Below the pieces are notes generated by a model. It was not told the origin of the DNA. It was given only the letters and a program-made list of their open reading frames with translations, and searched no databases. A DNA stretch of 64,000 bases from Gynurincola endophyticus (lineage in GTDB: Bacteria; Bacteroidota; Bacteroidia; Chitinophagales; Chitinophagaceae). Location of the stretch: assembly GCF_003991195.1 (NCBI RefSeq), contig NZ_RCWL01000001.1, positions 434,001-498,000 of the forward strand. The letters run 5' to 3'. Position numbers and translations under genes: made by a program. Positions 8,174 to 11,389 of this stretch are shown piece by piece. The first letter of the stretch is position 1, and every line of letters begins with the position of its first letter.

Positions 8174-9460
<1,287 letters not shown>

Positions 9461-9471
9461 TTAAAAAAAGA

Positions 9472-9501
9472 AGATTTCAAACAGGTTTTTTTTTGAAATC
9501 T
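9472..9501 (+). terminator. Possible terminator after purA
   Basis: AGATTTCAAA and TTTGAAATCT make a 10-bp stem around a loop that ends in a T-run. The stem is A/T-rich and no T-run follows the 3' arm, so termination efficiency is uncertain. Confidence 0.4.
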
Positions 9502-9624
9502 AATAGAAAAAGTCATATTTTTTTAACAATAAACTATCTTTTATTAGCTTAAAAATTTTTTGATCAAAAAGTTTGGCGAATTAAAAACTTCGCTGAAATT
9601 TTACATCAACAATCTTAATAGACT

Positions 9625-10098
9625 ATGGCAGCAAAATCTGTAAAAGCAAACAAGACCAGCGGCACTCCTGCACCAAAGTCTTCTAAGGATGAGCCAAAAA
9701 AAGCTTCTTCCAAAAGCAAGAAACAATTAGAAGATGATGAAGAGGATGACGAACTGGAAGAGGAAGAGCTAAATGTAAAAGCTCCTAAGAAAGCTGGTAA
9801 ATCATCTAAAAAGTCAAAAGACGACGAAGAAGGCGAAGAAGAGGATGACGATGATGAGGACGGGGATGACCTGGATGATGATGATTGGAACAAACCTGAC
9901 GAAGATGATAGTTGGGATCCTGATTTTGAGGAATTTGATTTACCCAGATCAAAAACCAAAAAATCCGGTGGAACCGGCACGGGCAGAGGTAAAGGAAGTA
10001 AAAATGAAGACGATGATGATCTTGGATTAGATGAAGACTTTAAAGATTTAGATCTGTTCAACGATTCAGGATTCGATGACGATGATGATATGTTCTAA
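9625..10098 (+). CDS. Extremely acidic, low-complexity protein, 157 aa
   Basis: The first ~35 residues are Lys/Ser/Ala-rich and basic. The rest has long Asp/Glu runs (about 37-48, 67-97 and 127-157) broken by two basic Lys/Ser or Lys/Gly patches (51-65 and 108-126). It ends with Asp/Phe repeats (LDLFNDSGFDDDDDMF). There is no signal peptide or membrane helix, so a cytoplasmic, largely disordered protein is expected. Basic/acidic block architecture occurs in histone-chaperone-like proteins and in the acidic tail of the Firmicutes RNA polymerase delta subunit, but I see no homologous folded domain. Function is unknown. Two in-frame ATGs of the following gene lie near its end. Confidence 0.85.
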   Translation: MAAKSVKANKTSGTPAPKSSKDEPKKASSKSKKQLEDDEEDDELEEEELNVKAPKKAGKSSKKSKDDEEGEEEDDDDEDGDDLDDDDWNKPDEDDSWDPDFEEFDLPRSKTKKSGGTGTGRGKGSKNEDDDDLGLDEDFKDLDLFNDSGFDDDDDMF

Positions 10099-10108
10099 TT
10101 CATTAGAA

Positions 10109-11389
10109 ATGAAGGATAGAGTTTATCAAAACTTTGAAGTTGTTGATTTTACAATATTTAAAACAAAAATGCTGAATTGGATGAAACCATTCAGCATTTC
10201 TTGTTTATTAGATAATCATTTGTATCAACAAAAACATACCCGTGCAGAATGGATTGCAGGGGTGAGTCAGTCTACGCACCATAGTCATCTGCTTTCTCCA
10301 CAGTATTGTTTCCAGGAACTTCAGCATTTACATGAAACAATTCCCGACTGGTACCTGGGGCATTTTAACTTTGAAGCGAACCAGCAGCAACCTCCTGAAC
10401 ACCCGGTCGCTTTTCCGGTAGCCCATTTTTTCAGGCCCGATACTATTATTCTACTAAAAGATAATCAACTGACAATCGGTTCAATCGTCGCCGATCCGGC
10501 AGAGATATTTGAAAGTATTCAGGCTTCAGCACCATCTGCTGCTGCTGCAGAGCCAGCAGAAGTGGAAATCAGATGTATTGAAACGAAAGAGACTTTTATT
10601 CAAACAATTGAAGCTATTCAACAGCATATTCAGCGGGGAGATTGTTACGAAATGAACTATTGTACTGCTTTTTATGCTGAAAATGCCTGCTTAGACCCAC
10701 TTGCCCTGTATCTTGCTATCTCAGCGTCCAATCCCAGCCCGTTTGCGGCTTATTACCGGTATTTTGATCAATACCTGATTTCTGCTTCACCTGAACGGTT
10801 TTTGCAAAAGAAAGCTACCGTATTGCGCTCTCAGCCAATCAAAGGAACTATTCAGCGGGCAGCAGATCAGCAGTTGGATGACCGCTTGCAACAACAATTG
10901 TTGCATTCGGCTAAAGATCAGGCTGAGAATGTGATGATTGTAGACCTGGTTCGCAACGATTTGTCAATGGTTTGCAAGCCCGGATCTGTAAAAGTGGAAG
11001 AAATGATGGCTTTGTACAGTTTTCCGCATGTACACCAGTTAATTTCAACAGTGACAGGTGAGTTGGAAAATGAGAAAGACTGGGGTAAGGCTATTGAAAA
11101 ATGTTATCCGATGGGTTCAATGACCGGTGCACCGAAAAAAACGGTGCTGGCCCTTACAGAAAAGTTTGAAAAACAACCGCGGGGATTATTCTCGGGAAGT
11201 ATCGGCTATTTACAACCGGATAGTGATTTCGACTTTAATGTGGTTATCAGAAGTATCTTATATAATAAGCAGTCTGGTTATGTCTGTTTTCCGGCCGGTG
11301 CAGGTATAACTATTTACTCGGATGCTGAAAAGGAGTGGGAAGAATGCGAATTGAAAATTGCAAACATAAAAAAAGTGCTGGCTCCATAA
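10109..11389 (+). CDS. pabB: Chorismate-binding enzyme, aminodeoxychorismate synthase component I (PabB-like)
   Basis: I chose the ATG at 10109 (426 aa). An upstream in-frame ATG at 10076 would overlap the acidic gene. The C-terminal ~260 residues are the chorismate-binding fold: RGDCYEMNYC, YLISASPERFL, SQPIKGT, IVDLVRNDLS, HVHQLISTVTG, YPMGSMTGAPK and GYVCFPAGAGI. PIKGT with the catalytic Lys is typical of aminodeoxychorismate synthase, which makes 4-amino-4-deoxychorismate for folate. Component I of anthranilate synthase is the main alternative, but no trp genes are nearby. The N-terminal ~130 residues are diverged. Confidence 0.85.
   Translation: MKDRVYQNFEVVDFTIFKTKMLNWMKPFSISCLLDNHLYQQKHTRAEWIAGVSQSTHHSHLLSPQYCFQELQHLHETIPDWYLGHFNFEANQQQPPEHPVAFPVAHFFRPDTIILLKDNQLTIGSIVADPAEIFESIQASAPSAAAAEPAEVEIRCIETKETFIQTIEAIQQHIQRGDCYEMNYCTAFYAENACLDPLALYLAISASNPSPFAAYYRYFDQYLISASPERFLQKKATVLRSQPIKGTIQRAADQQLDDRLQQQLLHSAKDQAENVMIVDLVRNDLSMVCKPGSVKVEEMMALYSFPHVHQLISTVTGELENEKDWGKAIEKCYPMGSMTGAPKKTVLALTEKFEKQPRGLFSGSIGYLQPDSDFDFNVVIRSILYNKQSGYVCFPAGAGITIYSDAEKEWEECELKIANIKKVLAP

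Follow-up and report, generated by a model that had tools for sequence, protein, structure and literature searches.

A conserved disordered charge-block protein encoded between purA and pabB in Gynurincola endophyticus

Gene X and its upstream element

The window, that is the whole 64,000-nucleotide stretch of Gynurincola endophyticus DNA that was analysed, carries a gene, called here X, between a purA ORF (8186-9460) and a pabB ORF. X starts with ATG and encodes a protein of 157 residues, which the first-pass annotation had described as a basic-then-acidic charge-block protein with two basic patches, a description confirmed from the sequence. Past the second basic patch, the protein is acidic through to residue 157. 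The gene, the element upstream of it and the charge blocks of its product are located as follows.

9572..9602, + strand: promoter-like element TTTG-N19-GAAATTTT (TTTG at 9572-9575, GAAATTTT at 9595-9602), a fixed pattern in the orthologues and their alignment
9625..10098 including the stop codon, + strand: gene X, encoding a 157-aa disordered polyampholyte protein (ORF, orthologues, dN/dS, no confident fold)
9625..9723, + strand: lysine/alanine/serine-rich head, residues 1-33 (from the sequence; K4, K10, K26 and K30 each conserved in at least 90% of 98 sequences)
9730..9768, + strand: acidic block 1, residues 36-48 (from the sequence and the block order)
9778..9819, + strand: basic patch 1, residues 52-65 (from the sequence and the block order)
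9820..9885, + strand: acidic block 2, residues 66-87 (from the sequence and the block order)
9946..10002, + strand: basic patch 2, residues 108-126 (from the sequence and the block order)

The net charge of X is -32, with a median of -29 over 98 family sequences. Among 399 ORFs taken from 464 kb of the same chromosome (ATG-started, at least 70 aa, greedily chosen so as not to overlap), X ranks first for acidity and also for charge, Asp and Glu making up 37% of its residues versus 20% for the runner-up. Across the 98 sequences cysteine is absent from every one, and lysine represents 17% of the residues. A 148-aa ORF on the opposite strand of the gene is serine-rich, in our own reading because it mirrors the GAT, GAC and GAA codons of X.

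Searches up to E 1 returned no Pfam or NCBIfam match for X, which, together with its having a gene of its own, agrees with the earlier view of a dedicated, uncharacterised protein. PHROGs gave no match either, and the search against solved structures gave two matches, the best at only E 0.77. Two Pfam names, each on 1 of 20 X members, and a DNA polymerase gamma/tau model with weak matches in 11 of 55 members (best E 0.042) were set aside as probably compositional, each judged without a control of its own. The AlphaFold2 model, built from an alignment of 55 sequences, had a mean pLDDT of 53.7 and a pTM of 0.15, none of the 157 residues reaching a pLDDT of 70; helices were predicted only at residues 135-141 and 144-147, both short and of low confidence. 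The earlier statement that no folded domain is visible is thus borne out by the model and by the Pfam search. No published description of X was found in the literature searched, most subscription journals lying outside its scope.

The promoter-like element, TTTG-N19-GAAATTTTAC, ends about 20 nt 5' of the X start codon and is conserved. Its fixed pattern was found upstream of 87 of 101 orthologues, with a spacer of 19 in 78 of them, and in 16 of 5000 random windows of the same chromosome; when a stricter pattern was used in the same genome, the X site was the sole match. The element resembles the Bacteroidota promoter consensus TTTG/TANNTTTG given in the available part of PMC6847099, and we infer from the sequence that it serves as a promoter. 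Two of the six defined letters differ from the published -7 element, namely the first T and the last G, both described in the same excerpt as nearly invariant in Flavobacterium johnsoniae, in which the -33 element is described as weak (PMC6847099). A conserved RNA hairpin in place of a promoter was rejected: the X upstream sequence of this genome can form one, but the stem, judged by eye, is not kept across the alignment. A weak, A+T-rich hairpin of ten pairs lies 3' of purA (9472-9501 in the window), and its role as a terminator is uncertain and unproven since 24 of 200 shuffles fold equally well. Regarding the other flank, the pabB ORF is listed from 10076 and an in-frame ATG at 10109 is the better-fitting start; as this ATG lies 10 nt past the X stop, X and pabB may be cotranscribed in this genome. 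The codon shares of X, compared without a ribosomal-gene yardstick, are close to background and do not support the earlier suggestion of high expression.

Orthologues, selection and conserved motifs

A phmmer search matched X in all of 24 genomes sampled from its own family and gave a single match, at E 0.88, in 15 genomes from other families of the same order. A profile built on the 24 phmmer orthologues found matches in 373 of 394 family genomes and in 319 of the 331 good ones, counts that refer to sampled genomes and not to full sets. Among the best 80 of 312 loci, named matches belong to Niastella, Flavihumibacter, Paraflavitalea, Puia, Limnovirga and Sediminibacterium, and many others to metagenome bins labelled just Bacteroidetes or Chitinophagaceae; the family carrying X would therefore, from these names, be the Chitinophagaceae, and one X-bearing bin labelled Williamsia is taken as misnamed. 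In these same best 80 of 312 loci, purA lies upstream of X on the same strand at all 73 that could be judged, in line with the earlier expectation of Chitinophagaceae orthologues at the same locus, and pabB lies downstream in 61 of 75, the remaining 14 of 75 having no pabB found nearby.

Eight of the 21 family genomes without a profile match were examined further. Assembly gaps are suggested for five of them, as four had no purA match either and in the fifth purA lies where a contig stops. In G628, a diverged 82-aa acidic ORF was found between purA and pabB, and in G589 and G654 a different gene occupies the locus. Nine genomes gave two or more matches, the extra ones being mostly fragments of the same gene and not paralogues. 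On viral contigs, 137 stretches fit the X pattern, none of which proved a relative by tblastn. The order purA-X-pabB also occurs in G397, which is assigned to a different family of the class; this genome may be misplaced, contaminated or from a sister lineage.

To describe conservation, a set of 98 distinct sequences was used, drawn from 80 loci (the best of 312) retrieved with the pattern D[PK]DF[ED]EFD and 24 others obtained by phmmer, after removal of five rows with open ends or with X in the sequence and merging of a duplicate. The 32 close pairs compared, not independent of one another, gave a median dN/dS of 0.08 (range 0.04-0.18). The alignment contains 14 columns with at least 95% identity and 23 with at least 90%, compared to none and 0-3, respectively, in five local-shuffle control alignments, the shuffle tests being approximate. 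The order of charge blocks is +-+-+- in 84 of the 98 sequences, +-+-+-+- in 11 and different in 3, so that the block order considered in the first-pass annotation is indeed conserved. These results show that X is an uncharacterised protein under strong purifying selection in which block order and short motifs are kept. Neither the lack of orthologues nor the unconstrained variation that had been considered was found, and X is not an unconstrained repeat given its orthologues in 373 of 394 genomes, its low dN/dS and its kept block order and motifs. A charge polymer drifting under little constraint and without a specific role would fit the variable block lengths (107-208 aa) and the other gene found at the locus in two genomes, but this reading is already contradicted by the dN/dS range, by the near-constant presence of X and by the conservation of the motifs and of the upstream element, and can be given almost no weight.

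Three motifs and a C-terminal tip stand out in the second half of the protein.

9880..9903, + strand: motif 1, residues 86-93 (DDWNKPDE; family form DDWEKxEE), with D86 in 100%, W88 in 94% and K90 in 92% of 98 sequences
9913..9963, + strand: motif 2, residues 97-113 (WDPDFEEFDLPRSKTKK), with D98, F101, E103, F104 and P107 in 100% of 98
10030..10065, + strand: motif 3, residues 136-147 (DEDFKDLDLFND; family form DE[DE]FKDLDLF), with F139 in 97%, K140 in 96% and F145 in 95% of 98; the sole place of predicted helix, at low confidence
10072..10095, + strand: C-terminal tip, residues 150-157 (FDDDDDMF), the last residue being F in 82, Y in 15 and L in 1 of 98

Motif 2 has the family form WDPDF[ED]EFD[ILV]PKSKxKK, W97 being present in 93% and P99 in 95% of the 98 sequences. 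Its conservation is circular for most of the set because the search used D[PK]DF[ED]EFD; motif 2 is nevertheless present in the 24 sequences found by phmmer. As the aromatic, proline and terminal aromatic positions are nearly invariant, X is more than a charge polymer, and specific docking is indicated. The earlier label of charge-block polymer therefore holds for the blocks and their conserved order and is incomplete as regards these positions. Very probably, X is a selected disordered docking adaptor. Its aromatic/acidic motifs (DDWEK, WDPDFEEFDIP, FKDLDLF and the terminal F or Y) would dock on a folded partner, in grooves that are basic and in part hydrophobic, and its lysine patches would hold nucleic acid or be covered by the acidic blocks until X meets that partner.

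The charge blocks, together with 7-13 aromatics per protein, could also be those of a condensate or nucleoid organiser, a blocky polyampholyte forming droplets with nucleic acid in which the motifs act as stickers; in a Bacteroidota species, Rho undergoes phase separation driven by a disordered region, as reported in the available part of PMC10284900. However, the motif letters are kept position by position, more tightly than sticker models require, and arginine amounts to just 0.5% of the residues, and we regard such an organiser as improbable. The tip raises another reading, in which X would be a replication/repair hub whose acidic end and terminal aromatic bind the pockets that read the SSB C-terminus. 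The SSB tail is likewise disordered and acidic with a terminal aromatic, 97 of 98 X proteins have an acidic run with F or Y as its last residue, and the DnaB of the same window ends EDEDAPF. By contrast, X has no OB domain, most of its conserved letters lie outside the tip, and the penultimate proline, part of the [LI]P[FY] ending of 13 of 15 family SSBs (the other two end in DLIF and, as read, PEDNE), occurs in 0 of 98 X proteins. Mimicry of the SSB tail by X thus fails, and the hub reading is highly improbable.

Relatives in other families and the DksA-type proteins

The X profile was extended with diverged members and used at E ≤1 on 248 genomes of the order. It matched 88 of them, 60 from the same family as X, 24 from a second family (f8) and 4 from others. 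Proteins from 20 of the 24 f8 matches were read (18 newly fetched and 2 earlier; 4 were left out). In 17 of the 18 newly fetched loci gltX lies upstream, and in 17 of the 18 a gene for a B12-binding mutase subunit lies downstream; both genes also flank the two f8 loci read earlier. All 20 proteins end in F or Y and contain EEF[DES]D[ILM]I[ED][KNQ][KR]S. The profile-profile comparison of own-family X with f8 gave a score of 40.4 and a probability of 89%, 100 column-shuffled controls reaching at most 31.4; single-sequence tests were weaker, with 11 of 20 f8 proteins and, in reverse, 5 of 8 own-family proteins outscoring 95% of their shuffles. The profile-profile comparison argues that the f8 proteins are related to X beyond composition, in a second family of the order and at another locus. 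A role of X in purine metabolism is not favoured, because the f8 relatives follow gltX.

ORFs of X-like appearance, ending in Y or F, were also found between purA and pabB in G025 and G133 (family f3) and in G033 (f11). Kinship beyond composition was not supported for them, shuffles reaching the real scores in 32 of 200 cases for G025, 38 of 200 for G033 and 75 of 300 for G133; the arrangement purA-ORF-pabB is the sole support for kinship. Across the class, the extended profile matched 16 of 395 genomes, namely 9 of the same family, G397 and two each of the families f62, f66 and f32. In f66 and f32, the matches are small basic-then-acidic proteins ending in DDF, at two other loci. Out of 200 shuffles, 1 and 5 reached the scores of the f66 proteins and 4 and 4 those of the f32 proteins, and in a repeat with 300 shuffles 1-6 and 1-9 did so, respectively; with scores reached by 1-5 of 200 shuffles, a relation to X is possible, not certain.

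The f62 match, in two genomes of one genus, corresponds to the disordered arm of a DksA/TraR-type protein (L057 1333-2388 and L058 895-1962), which carries a basic arm and an acidic stretch resembling the X core. This protein matches PF01258 over the cut-off, and the DksA-type protein of the X-bearing genome studied here (G000:C23:510104-510529) also matches PF01258. The f62 gene sits between genes read as ileS and lspA, gene names outside the family searches having been read by eye from translations. The stretch of the arm around DDDDDDEDVDVKDDYEKNEEDDEIVGDLEE aligns with the X core, its score exceeding those of 899 of 900 local shuffles. Within this one genus, the likeness spans X profile positions 6-97 (head and middle) and the acidic stretch resembles motif 1, the second half of motif 2, motif 3 and the tip of X having no counterpart in the alignment. 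X itself is not a DksA/TraR protein, as it has no C4 zinc finger PF01258, no coiled coil and no cysteine in 98 sequences.

In each of the 15 genomes read from the family of X, the DksA-type protein carries a long arm that is rich in lysine and has no long acidic block; in some other families of the order such an arm is absent. A lysine-rich arm is the feature that DksA/TraR-type proteins with disordered arms in Bacteroidota share with X, and it is the f62 protein that adds the acidic stretch. The arm of the own-family protein is very long and resembles histone H1 tails. Eight genomes outside the family were read as well. G025, G026 and G030 have a DksA with a long lysine-rich arm, and G024, G027, G028 and G031 have short DksA-type proteins (open frames of 129-151 aa); the frame of G029 contains a stop and was excluded. 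An X-like ORF is present in G025 and in G062, a congener of G030, and in the comparison of the eight outside-family genomes was not found in G030, in G026 or in the four arm-less genomes. Co-occurrence of an armed DksA with an X-like ORF is thus suggestive, the genomes being too few to count. In G010, the gene order is ileS, DksA-type gene, purA, X, pabB (L294 5299-8533); no DksA gene was found in the flanks of the 80 named X loci, the best of 312. A DksA-type protein of G198 (f18; L311 4503-5096) has a basic-then-acidic C-terminal tail whose likeness to X may be compositional: using one profile, 8 of 300 shuffles reach its score, and using the other, 121 of 300 do.

Comparison with acidic arms and possible partners of X

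In other bacteria, sigma region 1.1 is an acidic disordered arm on RNA polymerase, the delta subunit has a basic tract ahead of its acidic part, and known DNA mimics are mostly folded. Like X, the N-terminal arms of primary sigma factors (NCBIfam NF004560; region 1.1) have a lysine/alanine head followed by an acidic stretch. NF004560 weakly matched three X relatives (f66, f3) at E 0.03-0.09; homology with sigma was rejected, since 9 of 9 local shuffles match too, at E 0.39 or better. The X protein of the window gave 0 matches to sigma models, and X is unattached to any sigma. With the f62 DksA-type arm, NF004560 gave E 0.0004, a value without a shuffle control of its own.

Regarding the delta subunit (RpoE) of Firmicutes RNA polymerase, the available part of PMC7749165 describes a folded N-terminal domain of about 90 residues and, in likeness to X, a disordered and strongly acidic C-terminal region, of net charge -47 in B. 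subtilis. X is not delta, for without a Pfam match or any residue at a pLDDT of 70 or more it is without the folded N-terminal domain. It further differs from delta by its basic head, its alternating blocks and its conserved aromatic motifs, and we only infer polymerase binding for X. The negative charge of X could compete with DNA, as could that of DNA mimics such as DMP19 (available part of PMC5722371), from which X differs in having no confident fold and in carrying basic blocks as well. From these comparisons, X would work most like an acidic disordered arm that makes up a whole protein.

Transcription is favoured as the setting because of the acidic stretch on the f62 DksA-type protein, the likeness to delta and the Bacteroidota primary sigma, which is described as having no region 1.1 in the available part of PMC6847099. 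Between the roles of nucleic-acid mimic, histone-chaperone-like buffer and RNA-polymerase tail put forward in the first-pass annotation, the f62 lead likewise favours transcription. The transcription machinery, although the likeliest partner considered, is nonetheless only a candidate, and on balance an unlikely one; against it stands G026, with its armed DksA-type protein and no X detected. If X does act there, it would tune how polymerase releases or excludes nucleic acid, as acidic disordered arms do elsewhere, possibly together with the DksA-type factor, whose lysine-rich arm would be its charge complement in the same genomes. That X is a detached acidic arm of this machinery, supplying in trans the role of sigma region 1.1 or delta, and that its acidic module exists both as stand-alone genes following purA or gltX and within the arm of a DksA-type factor, is doubtful. 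The best explanation as a whole, that of a core, single-copy and fully disordered polyampholyte adaptor with a partner in transcription, is tentative and falls somewhat short of probable.

The lysine-rich arms bear on a further reading, namely that X chaperones or buffers strongly basic clients (HU, ribosomal and lysine-armed proteins), which its acidic blocks would neutralise and for which its motifs would add affinity. Very basic protein arms are indeed present in the same genomes, and X is strongly negative throughout the 98 sequences. Pure buffering would, however, need neither the invariant W, F and P positions, nor the fixed +-+-+- order, nor the conserved lysine head, and we consider this role rather unlikely.

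X is of interest as a near-universal family gene, unnamed in Pfam and NCBIfam and without a confident fold, that is yet selected at single aromatic residues. Should X bind RNA polymerase, it would reveal how Bacteroidota, with a main sigma without region 1.1, gain an acidic arm; with any other partner, X would be a clean bacterial example of a whole protein built of disordered docking motifs. Elsewhere in the window, the DnaB helicase (PF03796, 22120-23685) ends in MNDMPFGEDEDAPF, which is like an SSB C-terminus.
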